In this document: in pieces, positions 7,270-62,326 of the stretch | Layout of the letters: each line of letters opens with the position of its first letter | How positions within the stretch are numbered: position 1 is the first letter of the stretch | Source: Actinoallomurus purpureus | Lineage (GTDB): Bacteria; Actinomycetota; Actinomycetes; Streptosporangiales; Streptosporangiaceae | Assembly: GCF_024055795.1 (NCBI RefSeq) | Contig: NZ_JAMXMY010000001.1 | Span: 1-64,000 of the forward strand | Length of the DNA stretch: 64,000 bases | Direction: 5' to 3' | Translations under genes and position numbers: made by a program | Notes under the pieces: generated by a model | What the model was told of the DNA's origin: nothing | The model's input: the letters and a program-made list of their open reading frames with translations, nothing else | The model's database searches: none

Positions 7270-8244
7270 TTACTGCGGTAGTTCTTCCGAGCCCTGTTGG
7301 GCGGCCGCGGTGAGCCGGTCGGCGAGGTTCTTAAGGGCCCCTCGTAGTTCGTCGGGGTGGTGGATGGTGAAGGGCCATTCCAGGGAGGCGAGCATGTGTG
7401 CCATGCCGTCCAGGCGTTCTGCCCGTGCGTGCACGAGGACACCGGTGGGCTCGGCGGTGAGGGTCACAGCTGAGCGAGGCAGCCGACGGGCGATCGCATC
7501 GAGGGGGCCGTGGATCGTCACCTCGACCTGCCAGCGGTAGGACCCCTGGGCCAGGTTCGAGGTCAGGTGGGCGACGGGGTCGAAGCCGTCGGGGGCGGTG
7601 AAGCGGCCGGTCCGGGGGGTGACGGAAGTGATGCGGTCGATGCGGAAGGTCCGCAGGCTGTCGCGGAGGTGGTCGTGGCCGACGACGTACCAGCGCCCGG
7701 TGTGGAAGATCACGCCGTAGGGGTCGATGTCGCGTTCGGTGTGTTCCTGGCGCCAGGACTGGTGGCTAATGCCGACGGTCGTGCGGGCGCGGGAGGCCTG
7801 GGCCAGGGCCAGCAGGACGCCGGGTTCGGGTGCCTGCCCGATCACGGCGTTGGCGGTGAACGAGAGGGTCTCTCGCATCGCGGCGAGCGGTTCGCGCAGG
7901 GCGTGCGGGAGCATCCGCTCGATCTTGACCAGGGCACCGGCACTGGCCGGCGCGGCCGTGCCCATGCCCAGACGTTCTGCTGCGAGCAGGCCAAGGACGA
8001 CGGCGAGAGCCTCGTCGTTGGTGAGGACCAGTGGTGGCATCCGGTAACCGCGGGCCAGGCGGTAGCCGCCGTAGCGGCCGCGTTCCGCCTCCACAGGGAT
8101 GCCCAGTTCCCGCAGATGGGCGGCGTACCGGCGCACCGTGCGGACGTCGGTGTCCAGGCGGCCTGCCAGCTCCGCCCCGGTGAGCTGGGCATTCGACTGG
8201 AGGAGTTCCAGCAGGGTCAGCACACGGGTGAGGGGATGTGTCAT
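7270..8244 (-). CDS. YafY-type WYL-domain transcriptional regulator
   Basis: 324 aa. The N-terminus is an HTH_11 winged helix (VLTLLELLQSNAQLTGAELAGRL, DVRTVRRYAAHLRELGIPV, RYGGYRLARGY). A WYL domain follows (about residues 145-235, DIDPYGVIFHTGRWYVVGHDHLRDSLRTFRIDRI), and then a WCX-like C-terminal region. WYL domains often sense nucleic acids or small ligands. The gene is divergent from the alpha/beta hydrolase gene with 82 bases between starts, so autoregulation and control of the hydrolase is the natural reading. Confidence 0.92.
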   Translation of the reverse strand: MTHPLTRVLTLLELLQSNAQLTGAELAGRLDTDVRTVRRYAAHLRELGIPVEAERGRYGGYRLARGYRMPPLVLTNDEALAVVLGLLAAERLGMGTAAPASAGALVKIERMLPHALREPLAAMRETLSFTANAVIGQAPEPGVLLALAQASRARTTVGISHQSWRQEHTERDIDPYGVIFHTGRWYVVGHDHLRDSLRTFRIDRITSVTPRTGRFTAPDGFDPVAHLTSNLAQGSYRWQVEVTIHGPLDAIARRLPRSAVTLTAEPTGVLVHARAERLDGMAHMLASLEWPFTIHHPDELRGALKNLADRLTAAAQQGSEELPQ

Positions 8245-49740: not shown

Positions 49741-52700
49741 TCAGAGAGTCGCCGGCAGACCGAGGTTGCCGGCGTCGTCGACGGCCTGGATGACGATCTT
49801 CTGTGCGCCGGCCGGGACGGTGAGACTCTGCCGGCCGCCCGCGTCGACCGTCGCCGCGACGGTCGACACCTGACCGTCGGCGTCGACGCGGTAGGTCGCC
49901 GCGCGGCCGGCGTACCAGTCGTCGCCCGGCGCGACGAAGCTCACGGTCGTGCCGTCGCGCCGGATGTCGCGTGGAGCGCCGGGCGGGCGGGTATCCGTCC
50001 CGTACCGCCCGGTGCGCCACTCGTCGTGGTGATAGGCCCACGACTCGGCGTCCGGCCGTCCGTCGGTCCGCCAGGCGAACAGATACCCCTCGCGGGTGGT
50101 CGTCACCAGGTCCGTGCGCCCGTCACCGTCCAGGTCGCCGGCGGACGGGGAGAACAACGTCCAGCCGCCGGTGAACTTCGGGAAGCCGGCGGCCTGGCCG
50201 GACCCGGTGAACGCGTGCACCGTCGAGGTGTCGCCGCCGTCGACGACCTCGGCCCGGCCGTCCCCGGTGACGTCCGCGACCAGCGGAGCGCCGAGGAAGT
50301 CCAGGCCGGCCCGCGCGCGTGGGTACCCCGTCACGGGCAGGGTCGTGGCGGCGTCGTAGCCGCGCTCGTAGTTGCCGATGGCGGTGCCGCTGCCGGGGTA
50401 CAGCAGCGCGGCGACCAGCGACACAGCGCCCGACCCGGACTCGGCGTAGCCGAGCCGCCCGTCGCCGCCGAACCGCCCGAACGCCCCGCTGGTGGTGAAG
50501 GAGGCCGGCAGGTCGAGCGCCGCCGAGGGCGATGACCCGGTCAGCAGCGTGCGTACGGCGGTCGCGTCGCGGCTCAGCAGAGCGGACGCCGGATTGTTCA
50601 ACGGCCCGTACGCGCCCCGGATCGTGCCGTCGCCCCCGACCAGGAACGTCGCTGAGAACGACGGGCCGGTGGCGACCTCGTCCTTGCCGTCCCCGTCGAC
50701 GTCGGCGACCGCCGGACTGTTGGCGGCCTCGGTGATGAACTCCTGCGCGCTGCCGTAGTAGGTGACGATCGACGGCAGGCGTACCGGCCATCCCTTCACC
50801 GGCGAGCCGTCGGCGTGGTACGCGTACACGTAGTTCGCGCCGAGCGCCTGGATGCCCGCGCCGTGGCTCTCGGAGTGCTGGGAGCGCACGACGATCTCCG
50901 GCCGGTGGTCCCCGTCGAGATCGGCGACGGCGGGGGTGGCGTCGAGCTTCGCGTCGTCGATCGCGGTCAGCCCGGACGCCGGCTTGGGCGGGTCCGCCAC
51001 GGTCACCGGCCAGCCGGGCACGTCGGAGCCGTCCGCGTGCCAGGCGTGCAGCCGCCCGTCCCATCCGGCCTGCACGATCTCCAGGCCGGGCCGTCCGTCC
51101 AGGTCGGTGAGGACCGGAGACGCCGTCGCGCCCTGGTGGGGGAGCCGCGTGTAGGCCAGCGCGGGCCGGGGGATCGCGGGCCTGGTCACGCCGGTGTCGA
51201 GGGTCTTCGGCCAGCCGGGCAGGAGCCGGCCCTGGGCGTCGAACACGTACGTCCGTCCGGTCGTGCTGGTCGCCACCACCTCCTGATGGCCGTCGTGGAA
51301 CAGGTCGCCGACGGCGACCGGGGCGATGACCGGCTCATGGCCCGCGTCGAAGCCCGGGATCCGGGTCCGGCTCGCGCTCGTGGTCGCCGGCCAGCCGGAG
51401 AGCTCCTGGCCGCTCACCCCGTCGACGGCGTGCACCCGGCCGTCGGCGTCGCCGAACACGATCACCTCGTGGCCGGTGCCCCGCAGGTCGGCGAGCGCGG
51501 GCTGGCTCTCCCCGCCGATCCCGAAGCGCAGCGGGAAACCGGTCCGCAGCGTGGCGTCGTGGTGCACCGCGATCGCGCGGCGCTCCTCGCCCATCCGGCC
51601 CGCGTCGTCCCAGACGCGCAGGCGCAGGGTGACGGTGTACTGCTCGCTCGCCGACAGCTCCTTGTCGTCGGGCGTCGTGTACGCCTTGTCCCAGAACGAC
51701 GTCGGCAGTCGTGTCAGATCCAGCGTGCCCACCTTGCCGGCGTACGTCCCGGTGCCCTGCCCGTCGCCGGCCTTGATGAACGCCGAGTCGGCCGGTTCGA
51801 TCCCCGGCGCGAAGCCCAGCTCGTAGCGGAAGCTCTTGGCGCGGCGGGCCTCGACGTGCCCGGTGACCGGCACGGAGGACGTCGTCGCCGGGTCGTACAG
51901 GGTGTACCAGTCCGGGCCGTCGATCCAGGTCGCGGGCGGAATGTCGCCCTTGGCGACTGCGGCCAGGGCCTTCGCCGCGTTCGGCCGGCCGTAGCCGTAC
52001 TGCCGGTCCCACCCCGGCCGGCCCGGCCAGCCCAGGCTCGCGTCGTCGACGTCGCTCGAGGTCGCGCGCAGCACCTGCACGGCCTCGGCGTTGGTCAGCG
52101 GCCCGTCGATCTTCTTTTCCTCGGCGGCCTGCGCACCGTAGGACAGCAGCAGGCCGAACAGCCCGCCGGTGGTCGGCGTCGACTCCGAGGTCGAGCCGCC
52201 CGTGGTGGCCACCGAGAACATCGCCTTCGCGCCGAACGACGTGAGGTTCGAGCGCTCGCGGTAGGTCGAGGTCAGCGCGTTGGCCAGCGCCCCAGGCGCG
52301 CCCGCCGTGTTGGCGACCAGGCCGTTGCCGGGGATGACATGCGGCCAGAACATCCCGCCCTGATGATCGGTGGAATCGAAGTCGTTGCTGGACTCCACCA
52401 TGAGCACGCCGTCGTTCCAGAGCTTGTCGACGGCGCGGCGCATCGCGGAGGAGTACCCGAGGTCGGCCGTCGTGCTGACGATCACCTTGGCTCCGGCCCG
52501 GCCCGCGTACAGCCACGCCGCCGCGAGGTCGTCCGTACGGTCCAGCGCCTCGTCACCGGCGCGGATCGGCAGCAGCCGGCACTTGGGGCAGATCCCGGCG
52601 CCGAACCTGCCATTGTCGGTCCGCGCGGCCGCCACTCGCTGCTGGTTGTTGGCGTGGTCGTACGTGGAGTCGGGCGTGGCGGGGTCGTTCTGGTCGTCGT

Positions 52701-53286
52701 AGAAGTCCCAGCCGGAGATGTCGTCGGTGAAGCCGTTTCCGTCGTCGTCCCTGCCGTCGGAGAACGCGGCGATGAGGTCCTCCGGGTCGATGACGCCGTT
52801 GCCGTTCGCGTCGTGCACGCGGGGGTCCTCGGCGTAGTCGGCCGCGGTGACCGTGCCGTCCCCGTCCCGGTCGTACGCCGCCGATCCGGCGGGTTTCGGC
52901 AGCTCGCCGGTGTTGAGGAAGACCTTGTCGGCGAGGTCGGCGACGTCCCCGGCGTGCCAGTTGATGCCTGCCTCGACGTAGGCGATCACCGTGTCCGGCG
53001 ATCCGGTGGTGTAGTCCCGCCAGGCCGTGTCCACAGACATCCCGGCGGCGCCCTCCGGGTCCTTCGCGCCGGGCGTGCAGCGGGGAATGAAGGAGTAGAG
53101 GTTGTGCTGCTCCCCGCCCGGCGCGGACGTGGTCAGGCAACTCACCGGCGCGCCGTTCTCCACGGGGGCGTAACCCGGGTCGTCGGGCGGTCCCGCCGGG
53201 AAGCCGCCCGCCGCGGCACCCGGCCGGGCGAGCAGGATGAGCAGGGCGGGGACGACGGCGAACACGACGGCCGGGAGACGCCTCAT
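49741..53286 (-). CDS. Degenerate subtilisin-like secreted protein with beta-propeller repeats
   Basis: 1181 aa. Signal peptide: VVFAVVPALLILLARPGAAA. An S8 (subtilase) fold covers residues ~85-440, but the catalytic Asp position reads VIAYVEAGINW (Glu105 instead of Asp), the His motif is YDHANNQQRVAA (His211 without the HGT), and the Ser motif is GGSTSESTPTTGG (Ser367). Two EF-hand-like loops, DRDGDGTVTAAD and DANGNGVIDPED, are inserted at 139-170. Residues ~590-1080 are FG-GAP/VCBS-type repeats (PVLTDLDGRPGLEIVQAG, PAVADLDGDHRPEIVVRS, PAVADVDGDGKDEVATGP). A final Ig-like domain follows. It is in line with the lanthipeptide ABC genes (gap 106) but leader removal by it is doubtful. Confidence 0.82.
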   Translation of the reverse strand: MRRLPAVVFAVVPALLILLARPGAAAGGFPAGPPDDPGYAPVENGAPVSCLTTSAPGGEQHNLYSFIPRCTPGAKDPEGAAGMSVDTAWRDYTTGSPDTVIAYVEAGINWHAGDVADLADKVFLNTGELPKPAGSAAYDRDGDGTVTAADYAEDPRVHDANGNGVIDPEDLIAAFSDGRDDDGNGFTDDISGWDFYDDQNDPATPDSTYDHANNQQRVAAARTDNGRFGAGICPKCRLLPIRAGDEALDRTDDLAAAWLYAGRAGAKVIVSTTADLGYSSAMRRAVDKLWNDGVLMVESSNDFDSTDHQGGMFWPHVIPGNGLVANTAGAPGALANALTSTYRERSNLTSFGAKAMFSVATTGGSTSESTPTTGGLFGLLLSYGAQAAEEKKIDGPLTNAEAVQVLRATSSDVDDASLGWPGRPGWDRQYGYGRPNAAKALAAVAKGDIPPATWIDGPDWYTLYDPATTSSVPVTGHVEARRAKSFRYELGFAPGIEPADSAFIKAGDGQGTGTYAGKVGTLDLTRLPTSFWDKAYTTPDDKELSASEQYTVTLRLRVWDDAGRMGEERRAIAVHHDATLRTGFPLRFGIGGESQPALADLRGTGHEVIVFGDADGRVHAVDGVSGQELSGWPATTSASRTRIPGFDAGHEPVIAPVAVGDLFHDGHQEVVATSTTGRTYVFDAQGRLLPGWPKTLDTGVTRPAIPRPALAYTRLPHQGATASPVLTDLDGRPGLEIVQAGWDGRLHAWHADGSDVPGWPVTVADPPKPASGLTAIDDAKLDATPAVADLDGDHRPEIVVRSQHSESHGAGIQALGANYVYAYHADGSPVKGWPVRLPSIVTYYGSAQEFITEAANSPAVADVDGDGKDEVATGPSFSATFLVGGDGTIRGAYGPLNNPASALLSRDATAVRTLLTGSSPSAALDLPASFTTSGAFGRFGGDGRLGYAESGSGAVSLVAALLYPGSGTAIGNYERGYDAATTLPVTGYPRARAGLDFLGAPLVADVTGDGRAEVVDGGDTSTVHAFTGSGQAAGFPKFTGGWTLFSPSAGDLDGDGRTDLVTTTREGYLFAWRTDGRPDAESWAYHHDEWRTGRYGTDTRPPGAPRDIRRDGTTVSFVAPGDDWYAGRAATYRVDADGQVSTVAATVDAGGRQSLTVPAGAQKIVIQAVDDAGNLGLPATL

Positions 53287-53392
53287 GGAACCACCTCGAT
53301 CAGTTGACCGCGTGGCTCACTGTCCGCCAACCCCCGGATGATGAGTAGTCCTCTGGCCGGATGAGGACATGAGTCTTTCTCGCGTTCGGCCG

Positions 53393-54229
53393 TCAGCCGG
53401 TACGGGAGAAGCGGCGGGCGGCGACGCCCAGCGAGACCAGGGTGAAGGCGCCGACGACCGCGAGCTCCAGGAGCGGTGGTGGACGCAGGCCGCCCCAGGC
53501 CACCGGCGCGAACAGCGTCGAGGACGGATGCGCGGCGGTCCGCGCGACGACCGTCTGCCGCATCGCGTCGACCGCGTACGTCAGCGGGTCGGCCAGCGCC
53601 GCCCACGCCATCCAGCCCGGCATCGCGCTGATCGGGAACATCAGCCCGGACAGGAAGATCAACGGGGTCATCAGCACGCCGAGGACCGTGCTGAAGGTCC
53701 GGGGCCGGGTGATGGTCACCGCCACCACCGCGCCCAGCACGGTCATCGCGAGCGCGGTCAGCGCCAGCTCCGCGAGCAACGGCACGAACAGGCCGAGCCG
53801 ATAGGGCACGTGGACCAGGCCCGCGCCGAGCAGCACGACCGTGCTCTGACACGTCGCCACCGTCGCACCGCCGAGGCACTTGCCGGCCAGGAGAGTGCCG
53901 CGCCGCACCGGGCTGACCAGCATCTCGCGCAGGAAACCGCTCTGCCGGTCCCAGATGATCGACGCCCCGGCGGAGATGGCGGCGGGCTGCGCGGCCATCA
54001 CCAGGACGCCCGGGAACAGGAACATGAGGTAGTCGGAGGCCGGGCCGCCACCGGAGCCGGCGAACAGCCGGGCCAGCCCGACGCCGAGGACGAACAGGAA
54101 CAGCAGCGGCTGCAACAGCGCGACGAGGCTCGCCGTGCCGTCGCGGAGGAAGTGCAGCATCTCGCGGCGCCACACCATGCGCGCGGCACGGAGCTCGGCG
54201 GCGAACCGCGGCGGGAGGGCGAGCGTCAT
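53393..54229 (-). CDS. ABC-2-type exporter permease of the lanthipeptide cluster
   Basis: 278 aa DrrB-like ABC-2 permease with six hydrophobic segments (LLQPLLFLFVLGVGLARLF, YLMFLFPGVLVMAAQPAA, CQSTVVLLGAGLVHVP, LLAELALTALAMTVLGAVVAV, TVLGVLMTPLIFLSGLMFPI, LLELAVVGAFTLVSLGVAA). The conserved DRQSGFLREMLVSPVRR loop is the ABC-2 signature. ATG overlaps the ATPase stop (ATGA). It corresponds in position and type to CinH of the cinnamycin cluster. Last gene of the biosynthetic operon. Confidence 0.92.
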   Translation of the reverse strand: MTLALPPRFAAELRAARMVWRREMLHFLRDGTASLVALLQPLLFLFVLGVGLARLFAGSGGGPASDYLMFLFPGVLVMAAQPAAISAGASIIWDRQSGFLREMLVSPVRRGTLLAGKCLGGATVATCQSTVVLLGAGLVHVPYRLGLFVPLLAELALTALAMTVLGAVVAVTITRPRTFSTVLGVLMTPLIFLSGLMFPISAMPGWMAWAALADPLTYAVDAMRQTVVARTAAHPSSTLFAPVAWGGLRPPPLLELAVVGAFTLVSLGVAARRFSRTG

Positions 54230-55224
54230 CCGGCGTCCCCGTTCCGGTCGACGCGGATGCGGTGCCCCGTGTGGTGGAGGAAGACGTCGTCGAGGCTCGG
54301 CCGGGTGACCGTCACCTCGTACACCGGGACGCCGAGGCCCGCGCACAGCCGGGGGACGAGAGCGGCTCCATTCTCCGCGTGCACGCGCAGGCCGTGCGGT
54401 CCGGCGACGGCCTCGATGCCGAAGCGTTCGAGCAGGGTCACGGCCGCCTCGCGGTCATCGCCGGTGCGCAGGTCGATCCGGTCGGCGCCGAGAACGGACT
54501 TGAGCTCGGCGGGCGAGCCCTGTGCCACGATCCGGCCGTCGTCGATGATGGCGACGCGGTCGCAGCGCTCGGCCTCCTCCAGGTAGTGCGTGGTCAGGAA
54601 CAGGGTCGTGCCCTCGCGTTCGCGGACCTCCCCGAGCTGGTCCCACAGCTGCGTGCGCGCCTGCGGGTCCAGGCCGACCGTCGGTTCGTCCAGGAACAGG
54701 ACGCGTGGGCCGTGCAGCAGTCCGCGGGCGATCTCCAGGCGTCGCCGCATGCCGCCGGAGAAGGTGCGCACGAGACGGTCGCGCCACGCGGTCAGCCCCG
54801 CCAGCTCCAGCATGGCCTCCACCCGCGCGGGCAGCGTCGCGCGCGGCATGGCGTACAGGTCGGCGTGGAACCGGAGGTTCTCGGCGGCCGTCAGGTCCCC
54901 GTCGAGTGTCGTCTCCTGGAAGACGAGTCCGAGGTTGCGGCGCACGAGCCCCGGCGCGGTCCGCGTGTCATGGCCCGCCACCTCGATGCGCCCGGCCGTC
55001 GGGGCGACCAGCGTGCAGAGCATGGCGATGGTGGTCGTCTTCCCGGCGCCGTTCGGACCGAGGAACCCGAACGTCTCGCCCTGGGCGACGGTGAGGTCGA
55101 TACCGCGCACGGCGTCCACGCCCGGGTACGACTTGCGCACCCCGGTCGCGCGGATCGCCGGGACGCCCTCGGTCGGGGCCGCGGCCGCCGAGTCCAGCGC
55201 CCGCGGCCGTGGCGATCGCAGCAC
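54226..55224 (-). CDS. ABC exporter ATPase of the lanthipeptide cluster
   Basis: 332 aa DrrA-like ATPase. Walker A GPNGAGKTTT, Q-loop GLVFQETTLDGDL, ABC signature RTFSGGMRRRLEIARGL, Walker B VLFLDEPTVGLDP, H-loop LFLTTHYLEEAE, and a C-terminal DUF4162-like part. Equivalent to CinT. It follows the hydroxylase gene by 9 bases and overlaps the permease gene. Probably exports the modified peptide or gives self-protection by removing it from the membrane. Confidence 0.95.
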   Translation of the reverse strand: MLRSPRPRALDSAAAAPTEGVPAIRATGVRKSYPGVDAVRGIDLTVAQGETFGFLGPNGAGKTTTIAMLCTLVAPTAGRIEVAGHDTRTAPGLVRRNLGLVFQETTLDGDLTAAENLRFHADLYAMPRATLPARVEAMLELAGLTAWRDRLVRTFSGGMRRRLEIARGLLHGPRVLFLDEPTVGLDPQARTQLWDQLGEVREREGTTLFLTTHYLEEAERCDRVAIIDDGRIVAQGSPAELKSVLGADRIDLRTGDDREAAVTLLERFGIEAVAGPHGLRVHAENGAALVPRLCAGLGVPVYEVTVTRPSLDDVFLHHTGHRIRVDRNGDAG

Positions 55225-55233
55225 GGGACCCCC

Positions 55234-56328
55234 TCAGACCCACCGGGCCAGCCGGGCCGGCCAGTCGTCGGGGACGACGAAGCCGAAACTCCACCGGTGC
55301 CGCGCCGTGGGGTTGACGATGCAGTGCCAGAACAACCGGGCCGGGTCCTGCTCGGCCTTGAAGAACCGGACCATCCCCGGTCGCTCGCGCAGGGTGACGA
55401 TCTCTTCCGTGCGCGGATTCATGTACCGGAAGAACGAGGTACGGGACGGGTCCGTGAACGGCCCGTCGAGGTCGACGATGTACATCCGCCAGCCCGGCTG
55501 CGTCTCGTTGGTGTGCCACAGCCGGTAACTCGACGGCGGGTACCAGAGGCTGCCCGAGAACCGCACCTCCGTGTCGAAGACCGCCTCGAGCGCGTCGATC
55601 GTCCGCCGCTTGGCCGCGAAATAGGCCTCGTAGCCCGGATGGTCGACGTGCTCGTCCAGGTTGACCAGATGGAAGTCGCGCCGGGGGCCGTCCGGTCCCG
55701 TGGCCGGATCACGCCATCCGGTCCGGGCGAGGGCATCGTGCCAGGCGCGGTACTCCGGGTCCGCCGGGGAGCGGTCCGTGGACCTGAGGTCCTCCTCCCG
55801 GAATGTCCGCTGGAACCAGCCGATGTCGACCGACTGCGGCCTGACCTTCAGGTGCGGCAACTGCTCGATGACGTCTTCGAAACCCGGCAGGTCGGTCAGC
55901 CGGTACTCGTGGTGGAGGAGACCGGCCGGCGTGTCCCGCGCACGGGAGCCGGCGCGCGTGCCCGACGCGGTGTCGTCCGGGCGCGTGCGGGCAAGCCCGT
56001 CCGGCGTGGCGCCGGCAGGTCCGTCCGGCGTGGTGACGACCGGTCCGTCCGGCGCGGCGCCGGCGGGTCCGTCCGGCGTGGTGACGATCGGTCCGTCCGG
56101 CGCGGCGCCGGCGGGTCCGTCTTGTGTGCTGCCGCCCGGCGCGGTCGGCGCGCCCGGCCGCGCCCCCGAGGACGACGCCTCCATGAGCTCGGGAACGGTG
56201 AAGGTGTACCCGTGACGGGTTCCGAGCCGGACGATCTCCCGGACTCCGGTCACCGCCCTGAGCTCCCGCGCGATTTCGGGAGAGTCATAGGCGACCCGCA
56301 GGAACGCCTGGCTGGATTCGACGGACAT
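55234..56328 (-). CDS. CinX/DurX-type Asp hydroxylase (Fe/2OG) with N-terminal Nif11-like domain
   Basis: 364 aa in three parts. Residues 1-52 (SQAFLRVAYDSPEIARELRA, EIVRLGTRHGYTFTVPELME) match a Nif11-like domain, best known as a leader region of RiPP precursors. Residues 65-135 are a Gly/Pro/Asp/Thr linker with a 16-residue repeat. Residues 140-364 resemble aspartyl/asparaginyl beta-hydroxylase-type oxygenases: His272 in YRLWHTNETQPGWR, His335 in RLFWHCIVNP as likely iron ligands, and Arg345 in RHRWSFGFVV for 2-oxoglutarate. By position it is the enzyme that beta-hydroxylates core Asp15, required for lysinoalanine formation. ATG 33 bases after the LanM stop. Confidence 0.8.
   Translation of the reverse strand: MSVESSQAFLRVAYDSPEIARELRAVTGVREIVRLGTRHGYTFTVPELMEASSSGARPGAPTAPGGSTQDGPAGAAPDGPIVTTPDGPAGAAPDGPVVTTPDGPAGATPDGLARTRPDDTASGTRAGSRARDTPAGLLHHEYRLTDLPGFEDVIEQLPHLKVRPQSVDIGWFQRTFREEDLRSTDRSPADPEYRAWHDALARTGWRDPATGPDGPRRDFHLVNLDEHVDHPGYEAYFAAKRRTIDALEAVFDTEVRFSGSLWYPPSSYRLWHTNETQPGWRMYIVDLDGPFTDPSRTSFFRYMNPRTEEIVTLRERPGMVRFFKAEQDPARLFWHCIVNPTARHRWSFGFVVPDDWPARLARWV
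55996..56120 (-). repeat. 48-base coding repeat in the hydroxylase linker
   Basis: About two and a half copies of a 48-base unit built of two similar 24-base halves, encoding variations of GPAGAAPDGPVVTTPD. Copies differ at only a few bases, so the repeat is recent. Confidence 0.85.
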
Positions 56329-56361
56329 CGTCGGCCTACCTTCCGAGTTCGATCTGTGGCG

Positions 56362-59300
56362 TCATGACCGGCCGGGGGCCGGCGGTGGGTCGAGGAGCAG
56401 CACCGAGGGGACGCGGCCGGGAGCGGCGAGGCGGAGGAAGTGCATCCCGAATCCGGACATCCCGACCATCAGCCCGGGAAAGAATCCGGCGGTGTTCTCG
56501 ACGAGCCCGGTGTCGGCGTCGTCGACGTTGCGCCACTGGCCGCGTACCTGGACGTTGGCCTCGAGCTGGAACGCGGGTTCGTCCCGCAGCCGGGCGAACC
56601 GCAGGAACAGCTCGGCGTTCCCGGAGCGCCCGTGGCACAGCGTGTCGTTCATCAGCCGGGGGAAGTTGCGCATCGTGGCGGCGAGCGCCTGATGCGCCTC
56701 ACGCAGCAGGGCCTCGTCGGTTCCGCCGAGCGTCGCCCAGCTCGCGATGCGGCTCAGGCCGATGCCGGCGGCTCCGTTGCACCACGCGTTGGCGTAGTGC
56801 CGGCCCTGCCGTACGGGGCCGCCGGCGTTCGTGCGCAGGTCGTACCAGTCGTGCTCGGTGTCGTCGTAGTGCCGGGCCTCGTAGGCGAACGCTCGGCGGC
56901 CCGCGTCGACGTAGGACGGCCGGCCGGCCAGCGCGCCCAGCTGGATCAGCGCCCATCCGATGCCGCCCGCCCCGTGGGCGAAGCCGGTGAGGTTCGCCGA
57001 CGCCTCGCCGGGATCCGTCAGCGGCCAGCTCAGGACGTCACCGTCCGCGACGGCGTGACGGAGGAGCCGGTCGGCGCAGCGGCGGGCGTCGTCCAGGCCC
57101 TGGCCGTCGGTCATGCGCGTGAGCCCGAGCACGACCGGGATCACCCCGGCGCCGCCGCCGAGCACGTCGAACCGCGTGTCTGCGTCGATCCGGCCGGACA
57201 GGTCACGGCTGAGCCGTACGGCGAGTTCGAGCAGGCCGCGGTCGTCCCACAGATGATGCAGGTGCGTGAGCACGTAGACGAGCCCGCCGAGTCCGTCGAA
57301 CGCGCCGATACGCGTGCGGTCGGTGGCCGACACCGCGTGCGACACGGCCCGCTCGGCGGCCCGGCGGAACTCCGGGCGGGGGACGAGCGCGTCCAGGTAG
57401 GCCAGGAACAGCGCGATCCCGCCCGAGCCGTGGTACAGGTCGCCGTCGACGTCGACCTCGGTCAGCGTGCCGCCGGCCAGGTCGTAGGAGGTCCACGGTG
57501 CGGGCGCCGAGGGCTCGCGCAGCATCGCGCACAGGCGTTCGCCGATGCGGGTCGCGTAGTCGAGGGAGGTGGTGACGAAGGCCGGGCTGCTGACCTCGCC
57601 GACGGCCAGCCCGGCGGCGATGTACTGGCCTTGCTGGACGCGGTTCCGCGCCGACAGCCGCCGGATGCGCCGGGCGGCGTAGTCGACGGGGGACAGGTCG
57701 AGCGAGGCCGGCAGCTCGGTGGTGTGGTCGTGCACGAGGTGGTCACCGTGGACGTCCGTGGTGAAGATCGGGACGTCGAGTCGCCACATGGAGGCGATCT
57801 CGCGGTCGGCGAGCACCCCTTCGTCGTCCCACGTGCGCGGGAACGTGCGCACGGTGTTGACGAGCAGGTCGACCTCCAGCGGGTCGACCAGGCACCTCGG
57901 ATGCCGCGCGGAGACGAGCAGCTGGGAGTAGATCTGGGTGCCCCAGTTGATGAACCGCGCCGACGCTCCGCCGAAGGCGTCCGACAGTAGCCGGATCGCC
58001 GCGTCCGGCCGCTGCTCGAACCATGCGTAGACGCGGTCGAAGCCGGCCATGATGGCGTCGGCGAAGTCCTCCGGCCGGGTCAGCCGGTCGCCGAGGAAGA
58101 CGCGGTTGGCCGCCTCCGGCTCGACGTGGACGCCCGCCCGGTGGGTCACCGACGCCGCGAAGCTCAGGCGGTGCTCGTTGACGCTCGGCACCGGAACGGG
58201 CATGTCGTACGCCTCGCCGCCGGAGTAACCGCTGACGCGCATCTCGGCGGCGGACGTCCTGGCCCGCGGCCATTCGAGCAACCCGGTCTTGAAGACCGAG
58301 TCGAGCAGCGTGCCCAGCGGGCGGGCCTGGCCGCGCGGCAGAACGCCCAGGGCGGTCTCGCAGTCACAGACGTGGGCGTGGCCGTCGGCGACGATGATGT
58401 TCTCGAAATGCAGGTCGCCGCCGCCGAGCACGTAGAAGATCGCCAGATGGCCGCCGAGCTCCCGGTAGACCTGCTCGGCCTCCTCCGGTGAGTCCACGCG
58501 GTTGCGCCCCGCCGGGATCAGTGCCTCGTAGCCGTAGCCCTGCCGGGGCAGCACCGGGCGGGACGCGAAGCCGAGCACCCCGTCGCTGCGCAGGCGTTCC
58601 AGCAGGCCCTGCACCGCCGCCTCGGCCCTGATGCAGCGCGGCTTGTACACGAACGAGGCCGTACGGCCGGAGGCCAGCTCGACCTCCACGAACGCGACGG
58701 TCCGCGCGCCGGCGTGGGGGTCGGACCGGCCCTGGCGCACGGAGCGGAAGGCCGCGATCTCCTCGTCGAAGAACGCCGCCGCGATGGCGGACGTGTCGGC
58801 CGCGAGACGGTGCACCAGCCGCTCGCCGAAGTCGGCCAGCAGCGCCGTGACGTGGGCGAGCCACCGGCCGAGGACGGGGAAGCGGAGATAGAAGCGGTGG
58901 TACGCGGCGGCGTCGGCGAACGTGGCGTCGACGTAGGCGAGGTAGTCCTCGCGCGTGGCGCCGGCCCTGTCGACGTGGTGTTCGGCGCAGTGGACGTTCG
59001 CGTGTGCCTCGACCGCCCAGGCGAGGGACAGCTCGAAGCGGTCGAGGAGATGGGCCTGGAAGTCGTCGATCAGCCGCGGGTCGAACCGGCCCGGGTGACG
59101 CGCGCAGGCGTCCTCCAGCCGCCGCCCGAGCTCGATCAGGAACGGCTCGCAGGCCTTCGCGAGCCGGCCGTAGTACACGTCGAAGGCGCGCCAGCTCGGC
59201 CCCGCCGCGCCCGACGCGGTCCCGGTGTCGGTCTGGGAACCCGCCCGGTCACCCCGCACGCGATCGTCCGCCGCACCGGATTCGGACGGGCGGTCGTCCG

Positions 59301-59769
59301 TGGCCTCGAGGTCGCCCGGGCGCTCGTCCGTGATCCAGGCGTGCGCTGCGCGATCGGCCGTGCCGGGCCGCGTGGGCGCCTGAGCCGCGCCGCGTGACGC
59401 GGCCGTGGGGCCGCCGAAGCGGTCCAGGGCCGCCTGGTAGGTGGGCAGCCAGCACTCGTGCGTCGCGGCCAGAATCGCCCTGGTCTCCGGGCCGGCGTCG
59501 TCCAGGCCCAGCTCGTGGAGGCGATAGGCGGTCAGGGCCGCGGCGAGCCCGTCCTTGTCGTGGCGGGCGGACGCCGAGCGGTTCAGCGCCTCCTTGGCGA
59601 ACTTCGCGGCGAGGCGACCGGCCAGCCGGTCGATCTTCCAGGCGTCGAACGGGGCGAGCGGGCCGGCCGGCGGTCGTCGGCCGGCCGCCTCCAGCGCGGC
59701 GACGATGCGCGTCCGCTCGTCCAGGTTGCCGGCGAGTGCCGCGAGATCGAGATAGGGGTGGTCACGCAT
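56362..59769 (-). CDS. Class II lanthipeptide synthetase LanM (CinM-like)
   Basis: 1135 aa. The N-terminal dehydratase (DUF4135) has a VYKPRCI lysine, the GGGDLHFENIIV and CDCETALGVL kinase-like catalytic segments. The C-terminal LanC-like cyclase keeps all zinc ligands: Cys997 in NAWCNGAAGIG, and Cys1045-His1046 in DTLCHGRSGN. It therefore should dehydrate core Ser/Thr by phosphorylation and elimination and close the (methyl)lanthionine rings. A ~70-residue acidic low-complexity insert (about residues 120-190, APTRPGTADRAAHAW through TDTGTASG) interrupts the dehydratase. Gap of 287 bases to the precursor gene with a hairpin; gap of 33 to the hydroxylase gene. Confidence 0.97.
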   Translation of the reverse strand: MRDHPYLDLAALAGNLDERTRIVAALEAAGRRPPAGPLAPFDAWKIDRLAGRLAAKFAKEALNRSASARHDKDGLAAALTAYRLHELGLDDAGPETRAILAATHECWLPTYQAALDRFGGPTAASRGAAQAPTRPGTADRAAHAWITDERPGDLEATDDRPSESGAADDRVRGDRAGSQTDTGTASGAAGPSWRAFDVYYGRLAKACEPFLIELGRRLEDACARHPGRFDPRLIDDFQAHLLDRFELSLAWAVEAHANVHCAEHHVDRAGATREDYLAYVDATFADAAAYHRFYLRFPVLGRWLAHVTALLADFGERLVHRLAADTSAIAAAFFDEEIAAFRSVRQGRSDPHAGARTVAFVEVELASGRTASFVYKPRCIRAEAAVQGLLERLRSDGVLGFASRPVLPRQGYGYEALIPAGRNRVDSPEEAEQVYRELGGHLAIFYVLGGGDLHFENIIVADGHAHVCDCETALGVLPRGQARPLGTLLDSVFKTGLLEWPRARTSAAEMRVSGYSGGEAYDMPVPVPSVNEHRLSFAASVTHRAGVHVEPEAANRVFLGDRLTRPEDFADAIMAGFDRVYAWFEQRPDAAIRLLSDAFGGASARFINWGTQIYSQLLVSARHPRCLVDPLEVDLLVNTVRTFPRTWDDEGVLADREIASMWRLDVPIFTTDVHGDHLVHDHTTELPASLDLSPVDYAARRIRRLSARNRVQQGQYIAAGLAVGEVSSPAFVTTSLDYATRIGERLCAMLREPSAPAPWTSYDLAGGTLTEVDVDGDLYHGSGGIALFLAYLDALVPRPEFRRAAERAVSHAVSATDRTRIGAFDGLGGLVYVLTHLHHLWDDRGLLELAVRLSRDLSGRIDADTRFDVLGGGAGVIPVVLGLTRMTDGQGLDDARRCADRLLRHAVADGDVLSWPLTDPGEASANLTGFAHGAGGIGWALIQLGALAGRPSYVDAGRRAFAYEARHYDDTEHDWYDLRTNAGGPVRQGRHYANAWCNGAAGIGLSRIASWATLGGTDEALLREAHQALAATMRNFPRLMNDTLCHGRSGNAELFLRFARLRDEPAFQLEANVQVRGQWRNVDDADTGLVENTAGFFPGLMVGMSGFGMHFLRLAAPGRVPSVLLLDPPPAPGRS

Positions 59770-59961
59770 GAGGGCTGGCTCCCGAGGGCGTGGGCGAGGT
59801 GAGGTGCCGGGCGCCGCGGCGAGGCGCGCAGAGGCGGGTGGGAAGGTCCGGGATGTAACGGGTGGGGTGGGAAGAGGGCGGGCTGGGAAAAGCGGGGGGC
59901 CGTGGCGGGGCGTGGCGCGAAAGGCGAAGCGCGGACGGCGGAGCGGCGACCGGCCGGCCCG

Positions 59962-59976
59962 CCGTCCGGCGGACGG
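59962..59976 (-). terminator. Possible attenuator between precursor and LanM genes
   Basis: Hairpin ccgtcc-ggc-ggacgg about 80 bases after the precursor stop, inside the 287-base gap before lanM. A partial terminator here would give more precursor than enzyme transcript, as is usual for lanthipeptide clusters. Short stem, so moderate support. Confidence 0.4.
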
Positions 59977-60056
59977 TCGGCGGAAGGCGTCATCCGGCGA
60001 ACCGGACGACGCTCCCGCCTCCCGCCTTGGGCGAACGGAGTGCGGGATCCGAACGC

Positions 60057-60293
60057 CTACTTGGTCATGCCGTCGCAGATCGCCGTGATCGGACCCCAGC
60101 TGCAGCTGGTCTGGCAGGCGTAGATCTCCATGGCCGCGACGCCCTCGGTCCAGAAGTCCAGCGACTCCTGGTCCGGCTGCTCGACCGGGGCGGGAAGCGA
60201 GGAGGAGGACATGCCGAACGCGCCGGGGTCGGCCAGCACCTCGGTGCGGAACTCGCTGTCGACGACGGCCTGAAGGGCCATTGCTGAGGACAT
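60057..60293 (-). CDS. Cinnamycin-type lanthipeptide precursor (LanA)
   Basis: 78 aa: 59-residue leader and 19-residue core, the same lengths as in CinA. Leader phrases ALQAVVDSEFRTEVLADPGAFG and PVEQPDQESLDFW, ending in EIYA, follow the CinA leader; the IYA end stands where CinA has AFA, an A-x-A-like cleavage site. Core: CQTSCSWGPITAICDGMTK (cinnamycin: CRQSCSFGPFTFVCDGNTK). Predicted rings: Cys1-Thr18 and Cys5-Thr11 methyllanthionine, Ser4-Cys14 lanthionine, Ser6-Lys19 lysinoalanine; Asp15 hydroxylated. New residues at 2, 3, 7, 10, 12, 13 and 17. Perfect AGGAGG RBS. Core codons are 60060-60116. Confidence 0.97.
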   Translation of the reverse strand: MSSAMALQAVVDSEFRTEVLADPGAFGMSSSSLPAPVEQPDQESLDFWTEGVAAMEIYACQTSCSWGPITAICDGMTK

Positions 60294-60336
60294 GGAATAC
60301 CTCCTGAAAGTGTGGTGATGAGCCATTGAGGCGGTG

Positions 60337-60693
60337 TTACGCGGTTTTCTCGGCGGTCAGCCTGATGCCGATCTGCTGTTCGACGTTCATCAGCTCGTGA
60401 ATGGCGGCCGCCATGTTGTCGCTGTTGTTCTGCCAGTCGACCAGCTCCTTCTCCTCCGGGGTCAGGCCGTCGTGCAGCCAGATGGCCTCGAGCCACGCCT
60501 TCATGGCGTGGGGATGGAGATCCGCGACGGGATTGATCCGGGACAGAACAGGCTCTTCGTGGACGGCGAGGGCGAGCTGGAGGGCCTCGCGAAGCCTTCC
60601 GTCCGGGGGCAGCAGCGAACACACGATCATGAGCTCCTGGATTCGCCGGATGACATCCACGCCCGGGTAGATGGTGGGGCCCTTTGCGCTCAT
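60337..60693 (-). CDS. DurN/Cinorf7-type lysinoalanine synthase
   Basis: 118 aa, about the size of DurN (119). All-helical and without cofactor motifs: GVDVIRRIQELMIVCSLLP, LREALQLALAVHEEPVLSRI, HAMKAWLEAIWLHDGLTPEE, NNSDNMAAAIHELMNVEQQI. In duramycin biosynthesis DurN positions Lys19 and dehydroalanine-6 so that the hydroxyl of hydroxy-Asp15 assists the addition. Its position just before the precursor gene (43-base gap) is the same as cinorf7 next to cinA. The assignment rests on size, place and the core peptide's intact Ser6, Asp15 and Lys19. RBS GAGGAAGG. Confidence 0.88.
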   Translation of the reverse strand: MSAKGPTIYPGVDVIRRIQELMIVCSLLPPDGRLREALQLALAVHEEPVLSRINPVADLHPHAMKAWLEAIWLHDGLTPEEKELVDWQNNSDNMAAAIHELMNVEQQIGIRLTAEKTA

Positions 60694-60749
60694 CTTCGAC
60701 CTTCCTCGCTCGGTGAGAACCACGGTAGAAAGGGCCTCTTTCAGTTCGC

Positions 60750-61538
60750 TTACACTCTGCTTTCGCCCTGTCTGACCGCGGCCGGCTCACCGCGGAGAAT
60801 GGCGGCGTGGAGGTCGCGCATCTCGCGGCCGGGAGGCACGCCCAGCCGGTCGCGGAGACAGGCGCTCGCCCGGCCGTACGCCTCAAGGGCCTCGGCCGGC
60901 CGGCCGCAGCGGTAGAGCGCGAGCATCAGGTGCCGCCAGAACCCCTCGTGCAGGGGATGCCGGGCCGTCAGCGCGCGCAGCTCGCCGACCAGCCGGTCAT
61001 GCCTGCCCAGCGCGAGGTCGACCTCGTGCCGGCGGTCGAGGGCCCGCAGCCGCTCCTCGGTGAGGCTCGGAACGACGTCGCGGTGCAGCGAGTCCGAGCG
61101 CACGTCGGGCAGGACGGGGCCGCGCCACAGGGACAGCGCCTCGGCGAGGCCGGCCGACTCGGCGGCGAGGTCGCCGCGCCGGCCCGCCGCCTTGGCCTCG
61201 GCGACCAGCGCCCGGAAGCGGACGAGGTCGAGGTCGGTCCGCCCGATCTCGATGAGGTACCCGGCGGCCGACGTGCGGATGAGGCCGCCGGCCTGACGTC
61301 CGTGCCGCTCCAGGGTCTGCCGGAGCCGCGTCACGTAGGTGTGCAGGGCCGCGCGCGGGCGGCGGGGCGGGGCGTCGTCCCAGAGGCGCTCGGTGAGCTC
61401 GTCGAGGGACACGACCTCGTTCGCGCCGAGCAACAGGGTGGCGAGCAGGATGCGCTGCTTTCCCGCCGGGACGGCGACCCGGCACCCGTTGACGCTGGCC
61501 TGGAGAGGGCCGAGAACTCCGAAGACGGGACCGTGCAC
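60750..61538 (-). CDS. SARP-family pathway activator (CinR1-like)
   Basis: 262 aa. OmpR-type winged helix (VFGVLGPLQASVNGCRVAVPAGKQRILLATLLLGANEVVSLDELTERLW, LHTYVTRLRQTL) and a bacterial transcriptional activation domain (LDLVRFRALVAEAKAAGRRGD, ALDRRHEVDLALGRHDRLVGELRALTARHPLHEGFWRHLMLALYRCGRPAEALEAYGRA). SARPs bind heptameric direct repeats and switch on antibiotic clusters; cinnamycin production depends on CinR1 of this family. GTG start with GGGAG. First gene of the leftward cluster. Confidence 0.95.
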   Translation of the reverse strand: MHGPVFGVLGPLQASVNGCRVAVPAGKQRILLATLLLGANEVVSLDELTERLWDDAPPRRPRAALHTYVTRLRQTLERHGRQAGGLIRTSAAGYLIEIGRTDLDLVRFRALVAEAKAAGRRGDLAAESAGLAEALSLWRGPVLPDVRSDSLHRDVVPSLTEERLRALDRRHEVDLALGRHDRLVGELRALTARHPLHEGFWRHLMLALYRCGRPAEALEAYGRASACLRDRLGVPPGREMRDLHAAILRGEPAAVRQGESRV

Positions 61539-61717
61539 GCTGAACTCCCGCTGGGGTGTCGCAGGCGATTCGGCTGGATGGTGCGTCGGCGCAGGGGTGG
61601 GGGACGATTCGCGGAGGAGGCCCCTCCACTCACGCTAACGTAGCGTAGCAGATGCTTTACGAAGAGTAGCATTATTGGCTCGGTGGATCACCCGGAGATC
61701 ATGCATAGGTGACCGAC

Positions 61718-62326
61718 ATGAAGACTCACGCCTACTGGAACCACAACACCCATTACCACCCGCTGGTACTCGACGCGATGCCCGATCCCTGCGGCGAGGC
61801 ACTGGACGTCGGGTGCGGTGAGGGCCTGCTCGTCCGCAGGCTCGCCGGCCGGGCGCGCCGCGTCACCGGTGTGGATCGGTCCGCGGAGATGATCGAACGG
61901 GCGCGCGAGCTCGCCGCCGGCGCAGGCGCCCCGGGCGCCATGGAGTTCGTCCAGGCCGACTTCCTCCGGCATCCATTGCCCGAGGGCGCGTACGACCTCA
62001 TCTGCTCGGTCGCGGTCATCCACCACATGGACTTCACGAGCGCGCTCACCAGGATGGCGGAGCTGCTGCGCCCGGGCGGACGACTGGTGATCGTCGGCCT
62101 CGCCCGCGAGCGCACGCCCTGGGATCGGGCGTGCAGCGGTGCCGCGCTGCCCGCCGTCATGGTCCTCGACCGCCTGTACGGCAAGACGGACCCGCCGGGC
62201 ATGCCGATGGTGGAGCCGGAGATGAGCTGGGGGCAGGTCCGCCGGGACGCGCTGCGGCTGCTGCCCGGCGCGCGGTTCCGGCGGCACCTGCTGTGGCGCT
62301 ATTCGGTGTGCTGGCGCAAACCCTGA
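61718..62326 (+). CDS. Class I SAM-dependent methyltransferase
   Basis: 202 aa. SAM-binding motif I is ALDVGCGEGLLVRRLAGRA, followed by VTGVDRSAEMIERARELA, the motif VQADFLRHPLPEGAYDLICSVAVIHHM and LRPGGRLVIVGLARERTPWD. Typical Methyltransf_11/25. It is divergent from the SARP gene. No N- or C-methylation is known in cinnamycin-type peptides, so a link to the cluster is only positional. ATG at 61718 preferred because AGGTGA lies six bases before; a GTG at 61709 is also in frame. Confidence 0.9.
   Translation: MKTHAYWNHNTHYHPLVLDAMPDPCGEALDVGCGEGLLVRRLAGRARRVTGVDRSAEMIERARELAAGAGAPGAMEFVQADFLRHPLPEGAYDLICSVAVIHHMDFTSALTRMAELLRPGGRLVIVGLARERTPWDRACSGAALPAVMVLDRLYGKTDPPGMPMVEPEMSWGQVRRDALRLLPGARFRRHLLWRYSVCWRKP

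Follow-up and report, generated by a model that had tools for sequence, protein, structure and literature searches.

Positions 1 to 64,000 of contig NZ_JAMXMY010000001.1 of Actinoallomurus purpureus (assembly GCF_024055795.1), a stretch of 64,000 nucleotides referred to here as the window, carry at 53393-61538 what is, virtually beyond doubt, a cinnamycin-type class II lanthipeptide gene cluster. Taken in full, the explanation we consider probable is that this cluster is complete, that its product binds phosphatidylethanolamine (PE), and that the producer is safe through the absence of PE.

A SARP regulator would activate a durN-lanA-lanM-lanX operon via three hexamer repeats. LanM would then dehydrate Ser4, Ser6, Thr11 and Thr18 of the core and close rings 1-18, 4-14 and 5-11, LanX would hydroxylate Asp15, and DurN would close the Ser6-Lys19 lysinoalanine. 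Export would be the task of the ATP-binding cassette (ABC) exporter TH, with a host peptidase cleaving after EIYA, and the product, with a predicted mass of 1944.80 Da, should bind PE. The producer itself is apparently unable to make this lipid, since neither pssA nor psd was found, so that cluster-borne immunity would be unneeded.

Gene content, core peptide and operator

Seven intact open reading frames (ORFs) fill 53393-61538 on the minus strand, in the order SARP, durN, lanA, lanM, lanX hydroxylase, ABC ATPase and ABC permease, with a GC content at third positions of 0.87-0.95. The precursor gene lanA (60057..60293, 78 aa, preceded by AGGAGG) comprises a leader (60117-60293) and a core (60060-60116), and its product matches the NCBIfam model NF033431 cinnamycin_RiPP (101.5 bits, 3e-29; cut-off 35) and Pfam PF19398 DurB-like (97.8 bits, 4.7e-28; cut-off 26.6). 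The class II lanthionine synthetase LanM (56362..59769, 1135 aa; TIGR03897, 490.9 bits, 6e-147, cut-off 304) has DUF4135 and LANC_like domains with the motifs WCNGAAG and CHG in place, and matches the LicM2 structure 6ST5 at E 1.6e-47. The durN-type lysinoalanine synthase (60337..60693, 118 aa; PF19375, 5.8e-44, 148.9 bits, cut-off 23.9) matches the solved lysinoalanine synthase structure 6C0G at E 2e-49. The CinR1-like SARP activator (60750..61538, 262 aa, GTG start) has BTAD (1.5e-42) and Trans_reg_C (4.6e-9) domains. The exporter consists of a CinT-like, DrrA-related ATPase (54226..55224; TIGR01188, 2.5e-91, 306.1 bits, slightly below the cut-off of 312.45) and a CinH-like permease (53393..54229; PF01061, 9.6e-31), whose genes overlap at ATGA.

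The defining components of the family, namely a LanA leader and core, LanM, DurN, a CinX-type hydroxylase, the TH exporter and a SARP, are thus all present in the sequence. Identities to the proteins of clusters L070/L083, whose core we take to be that of cinnamycin (Streptomyces), are 70% for N, 54% for A, 61% for M, 51% for X (against L070), 77% for T, 64% for H and 55% for the SARP (against L083). The initial annotation, made from the letters of the DNA, had placed a complete cluster at these coordinates; position, family and gene list are borne out by the family models, the homologies and the 6C0G match. The word ‘complete’ is justified as regards biosynthesis, export and activation; it does not extend to the immunity and regulation module of cinnamycin, as CinK, CinR and CinL were not found.

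The core, CQTSCSWGPITAICDGMTK, has 19 residues and follows a 59-residue leader ending in EIYA. It retains all ring residues (C1/C5/C14, S/T at 4, 6, 11 and 18, D15 and K19), among them Ser6, Asp15 and Lys19, together with Gly8 and Pro9. Compared with the cinnamycin core in L070 there are seven changes (R2Q, Q3T, F7W, F10I, F12A, V13I, N17M). The closest cores are the CQTSCSWGPITAVCDGTTK of two Actinoallomurus genomes, which differ by I13V and M17T only. CQTSCSWGPITAICDGMTK occurs at no other locus collected, and a text search of the literature with fragments including SCSWGP and CDGMTK found neither of these two. On its sequence, then, the core is new among the loci collected, and the molecule otherwise belongs to the known cinnamycin type.

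Variation among natural relatives was assessed in 26 distinct cores, a set separate from the host panel below, drawn with a pattern that fixed C1, C5, G8, P9, T11, C14, G16 and K19 and limited position 15 to D/N and position 18 to T/S; the constancy of Gly8, Pro9 and position 15 in these relatives therefore says nothing. Positions 4 and 6 were left free, and Ser or Thr occupies both in 26/26. Positions 7, 10, 12, 13 and 17 vary, position 7 highly so: Trp7 is found in 6 cores, Ile10 in 4, Ala12 in 3 and Met17 in 1, that of the window. Variant cores outside the pattern come from L068/L071, L012, L007, L034-L036 and L037-L039. The group motif given in PMC12837462, in the part of that paper considered here, is CxxxCSxGPFTxxCDGxTK, from which the Ile10 of CQTSCSWGPITAICDGMTK departs in place of Phe. 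The claims of the initial annotation on leader length, ring-forming residues and novelty of the core hold up against these data. It had also singled out Trp7, Ile10, Ala12 and Met17 as departures from known members; this stands for Met17, unique among the 26, but Trp7 (6/26) and Ile10 (4/26) are not rare, and Ala12 is found in 3/26. As position 7 is so variable, ‘Phe at 7’ fits isolated members only. The idea that CQTSCSWGPITAICDGMTK prefers a different head group or curvature is speculative.

With four dehydrations and one hydroxylation, the mature peptide has a predicted monoisotopic mass of 1944.799 Da ([M+H]+ 1945.806, [M+2H]2+ 973.407). Applied to cinnamycin, this calculation yields 2039.844, in agreement with a value of 2,041 Da given in a passage of PMC10676316. 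Each of the modifications, PE binding and the cleavage of the leader would follow from the relationship to characterized family members.

Upstream of durN lies a probable SARP operator with the start of a -10 element, CGAAAG-N5-TGTAAG-N5-TGAAAG-N10-TA (60726..60765, minus strand). The hexamers CGAAAG, TGTAAG and TGAAAG stand at 11-bp spacing and are followed, after 10 nt, by a -10 that begins with TA. The cluster with the cinnamycin core has the same layout (TGAAAG, TGAAAC, TGAAAG, then TAGTGT), and the arrangement seen here fits the cinnamycin SARP operator as presented in the relevant passage of PMC5408092. The exact pattern, composed after the site had been seen, matches once in the window and in 0 of 100 shuffles. 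A looser version of the layout lies no more than 400 bp upstream of durN in 5/10 clusters (the window, L008, L009, L046 and L070), and all three Actinoallomurus clusters are among these five.

Genes for PE synthesis and for immunity

The established pathway to PE runs through PssA and then Psd. A psd gene (PF02666) was detected in 0/8 Actinoallomurus genomes searched, compared with 214/297 genomes positive in the family sample that contains those 8. Matches to pssA over the cut-off were likewise found in 0/8, and the weak pssA matches in the two Actinoallomurus genomes examined are phosphatidylinositol phosphate synthases. A cluster is present in 4/8 of these genomes.

Streptomyces cinnamoneus is protected by CinL (Cinorf10), a PE methyltransferase turned on by CinKR, and deletion of cinorf10, cinR or cinK singly leads to duramycin sensitivity (PMC5408092, in the passages considered here). 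CinKR, CinL, CinY and Orf11 have no match in the window, and no CinKRL homologues occur in the Actinoallomurus or Actinomadura loci examined; such homologues are present in L071, L083 and the metagenome-assembled genome locus L041, and L043 has a distant CinL. The duramycin cluster was initially thought to be without immunity genes, which were later located farther away, as recounted in part of PMC6974636, and for this reason CinL was searched for genome-wide. The search of eight Actinoallomurus genomes gave a single partial hit of 27.9 bits, in G000, and a four-sequence CinL profile detected none at E 1e-10 in 4/4 Actinoallomurus cluster hosts. CinK and CinR were not found in the window or the loci, and whole genomes were not searched for these two.

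The relationship between PE genes and CinL was examined across 26 cluster hosts, a panel made up of 24 family genomes and the Streptomyces genomes G728 and G942 (the latter with a variant core). PF19398 hits were present in 31 family genomes, 7 of which were dropped before producers were counted: G608, G614 and G630 have other cores, and G569, G704, G707 and G708 matched at the core end only. Both psd and pssA are present in 8 hosts and neither in 18 (pssA split at E 1e-15; 7/8 exceed the curated cut-off). A CinL-type methylase, for which nearly all candidates per genome were scored, is found in 8/8 psd-positive and 3/18 psd-negative hosts. One such gene lies within ~12 kb of lanA in G728, G942, G494 and G522; the remaining four psd-positive hosts have it only at other genomic positions. 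Every panel host with detectable PE genes also has a CinL-type methylase, and 15/26, the host of the window included, have neither. The 14 psd-negative hosts other than Actinoallomurus probably belong to the genus Actinomadura, whose membrane has non-nitrogenous phospholipids according to a passage of PMC8631618. Across the family sample, cinnamycin-type clusters occur in 18/83 psd-negative and 6/214 psd-positive genomes (Fisher p 7.5e-7). Genomes with ‘exposed PE’, in which psd is present and the methylase absent, include 0/16 cluster hosts; as chance predicts no more than ~1.3 (16 x 24 / 297), this comparison is uninformative.

These patterns suggest that missing pssA and psd would mean missing PE in the membranes of the producer, so that target absence would take the place of immunity genes. 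A number of points weigh against this reading or against parts of the wider explanation. The search for PE genes covered pssA and psd, and other PE routes, such as a phospholipase-D-type PE synthase, were not searched for. In three of the psd-negative hosts a weaker CinL-like gene is present (115-123 bits). The association of cluster and psd is confounded by ancestry, because the 18 hosts without psd come from two genera, and since the methylase accompanies psd in 198/214 genomes, 8/8 is to be expected and is by itself no evidence of selection. Genome G000 is 97.9% complete and in 52 contigs. In the literature searched we found no lipid analysis of Actinoallomurus, nor any printed account of immunity by PE absence. 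On the side of regulation, the looser operator layout was not found in 5/10 clusters (L041, L042, L043, L044 and L071), and a SARP match is absent in the A. soli cinnamycin-type cluster and the Actinomadura loci. Finally, the leader ends in IYA and not in the AXA cleavage motif described for a relative in a section of PMC6165096, and the cut site after EIYA is therefore only a presumed one.

Two other explanations differ in how the producer survives. Self-protection could lie with the TH exporter or another unlinked factor, the missing PE pathway being incidental biology of the genus. In favour of this, TH shows a relationship to the DrrAB drug exporters and is present in most actinobacterial loci examined, and all 8 genus genomes, 4 of them with a cluster, gave no psd match. 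The single deletions of cinorf10, cinR or cinK that render S. cinnamoneus sensitive (PMC5408092, as excerpted) nevertheless imply that the remaining cluster, TH included, fails to protect a PE-making host, and without PE an additional protective factor would have no task; we regard this alternative as rather unlikely. A divergent methyltransferase at 61709-62326 could also be imagined to replace CinL, as it encodes an S-adenosylmethionine methyltransferase and adjoins the SARP gene. Its BLASTP match to CinL is only E 0.002, it has no match in the other cluster loci searched, and orthologues of 79-81% identity occupy the cluster-free site in A. soli and in G400, in which no cluster was found. 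It was rejected as an unrelated flank gene, and its role in immunity has next to no probability.

The peptide and the cluster itself could also be read differently. The tandem repeats that lengthen the hydroxylase linker would suit a decayed or silent remnant; this is very improbable given seven intact ORFs with strong third-position GC, a hydroxylase that keeps its invariant columns, and a retained operator layout. Retargeting to another lipid by Ile10, Ala12 and Met17 draws on the uniqueness of Met17 among 26 cores and on Ala12 being found in 3/26. It is set against the variability of positions 7, 10, 12, 13 and 17 among relatives and the retention of Gly8, Pro9 and Asp15 in CQTSCSWGPITAICDGMTK, Pro9 being the residue linked to PE binding in a passage of PMC5408092, and we judge it improbable.

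The genome pattern would explain, simply and in a form open to testing, how a producer can do without CinL while making a PE-binding antibiotic. If this explanation is right, it suggests that PE has to be masked or missing in heterologous hosts, and Actinomadura and Actinoallomurus may offer hosts with natural resistance. A broader proposal, which we advance tentatively and on which we lean slightly to the doubtful side, is that target absence is the usual condition of cinnamycin-type producers, that the clusters reside mainly in actinobacteria without PE, and that CinKR-CinL is an accessory that allowed the pathway to function in PE-making hosts such as Streptomyces. On this view the A. purpureus producer would be PE-free, its peptide would be harmless to the whole genus, and control of production would be relaxed. 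The Ile10 core also extends a family whose members serve as PE probes and have been tried as drugs, as stated in parts of PMC10676316 and PMC6974636.

Hydroxylase, intergenic hairpin and insertion site

The CinX-type Asp15 hydroxylase (55234..56328, minus strand, 364 aa) is predicted to consist of a Nif11 domain (residues 1-48), a repeat linker and a 2-oxoglutarate (2OG)-Fe(II) oxygenase fold. Nif11 is the sole domain found by a Pfam scan, the catalytic part being without a hit. It is present in 21/21 members of the hydroxylase alignment (E 0.01), and a published homologue is likewise named a Nif11 family protein in the portion of PMC6165096 considered here. A derivation of this domain as a copy of the LanA leader was rejected (profile comparison probability 3%). 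The predicted structure has a mean predicted local distance difference test (pLDDT) score of 80.5, with residues 60-131 below 50, and its top Foldseek matches are the 2OG-Fe(II) oxygenases PHD2/P4H (E 7.8e-7), with modest template modelling (TM) scores of 0.28 by query and 0.43 by target. Columns invariant over 21 rows are kept, H272, H335 and R345 included. In-frame tandem repeats of 24 bp (55943..56152, minus strand) lengthen the low-pLDDT linker in this strain; homologues have 295-330 aa where the start is clear, vs. 364 aa in the window.

The gap between lanA and lanM holds an 18-pair hairpin (59979..60019, minus strand; centroid structure), though the z-score of the whole region is only -1.86. 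The cin attenuator sits between cinA and cinM (PMC5408092, in the part seen), and the hairpin, which takes its place here, may act as an attenuator.

Comparison with two congeners that lack the cluster at this site delimits an inserted unit at approximately 53387..61694. In A. soli (L100) the flanks end at 53386 (87.6%) and start at 61695 (82.3%), ~0.66 kb apart, and in G400 (L101) the corresponding limits are 53419 and 61726, ~0.67 kb apart. The gap holds one small Polyketide_cyc-domain gene in L100, and is similar by eye in L101. As the flanks are near-adjacent in both, the cluster is a discrete unit of about 8.3 kb. Flank genes are a subtilase-like/FG-GAP gene on the left and the methyltransferase gene 61709-62326 on the right. 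The subtilase-like/FG-GAP protein (49741-53286) was considered as leader peptidase and rejected, as it has no match in other cluster loci and the stretch is present at the cluster-free site. Immediately to the right of the methyltransferase, a second stretch of ~5.7 kb (62333 to about contig position 68087) has no counterpart at the equivalent position of either A. soli or G400, so that the site may be an insertion hotspot. The clusters of A. iriomotensis (G398) and G402 lie at one site common to both genomes; because their homology to the window is confined to the cluster, this is another chromosomal site.

Related clusters and known systems

The search for relatives listed at least 24 loci; LanA relatives were found in neither viral contigs nor plasmids. 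In a LanM tree of 29/31 rows (L047, from the same genome as L010, and the partial L060 were left out), the window falls in a six-row clade (99/99) with A. iriomotensis, G402 and three clusters of quite different core; the order within the clade is not resolved by the tree. These three (L011 9769-9996 (+), L073 8052-8279 (-) and L072 about 7412-7588 (+)) combine a cinnamycin-type leader with the core A-C-P-x-T-H-H/Q-C-x-H-T-x-x-C-x-x-T-Y. They have no DurN or hydroxylase match, with an exporter in L011, and beta-lactamase-fold serine hydrolase genes lie on both sides in L011, with one confirmed in L072. A core swap within one LanM lineage is possible.

Further divergent relatives were observed. 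The Streptomyces genome G942 (L071/L068) has a cinnamycin-like precursor, CTSSCSSGRFTIICDGGTK, in which Arg replaces the Pro of core position 9; CinKRL is retained in its cluster. L012 (G103:C60), from a small-genome member of the phylum, has DurN and LanM homologues and a divergent core without C1, P9 and K19, with no hydroxylase match. Short precursors in L037, L038 and L039 end in C-x-x-T-C-x-S-G-x-T-I-x-C-D-G-x-T-F/L; only the core end is cinnamycin-like, and Lys19 is missing. Among the matches listed, L058-L062, from Oscillatoria, Hormoscilla, Scytonema and Sphingomonas, encode cinnamycin-like cores; DurN-like and hydroxylase genes accompany the core in Sphingomonas, and the Hormoscilla locus is without a DurN match. 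A second lanA in Actinomadura oligospora (L054 3339-3545), with core CISTCSYGPTTIICDGATK, has no LanM, DurN or hydroxylase match within the locus.

The nearest relatives of the window are the clusters of A. iriomotensis and G402, with their near-identical core CQTSCSWGPITAVCDGTTK and LanM of the same clade. In the lanthipeptide literature, as far as its passages were considered here, Actinoallomurus appears in one, on microbisporicin. Actinomadura clusters resemble the window in their mostly N-A-M-X-T-H order, in the lack of CinKRL in the loci examined and in panel hosts without psd and pssA. They differ in their cores, mostly C-A/S-S-T-C-x-x-G-P-F/L-T, and in having no SARP match. L048 is from A. 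atramentaria, the species of cinnamycin B, and L051 carries the rubromidin core given in part of PMC6165096. Coerumycin, a further published member in the excerpted PMC12837462, is outside the loci compared. The cinnamycin cluster (L070/L083) shares with the window a SARP, the N-A-M-X-T-H order, the 59-residue leader, the ring residues and an operator with 10 nt to the -10, whereas in the window the SARP gene lies directly upstream of durN. Kyamicin (Saccharopolyspora), as described in the part of PMC6974636 considered, is likewise encoded by a compact cluster with a SARP, but, unlike the window, the kyamicin cluster keeps KyaR, KyaK and KyaL.

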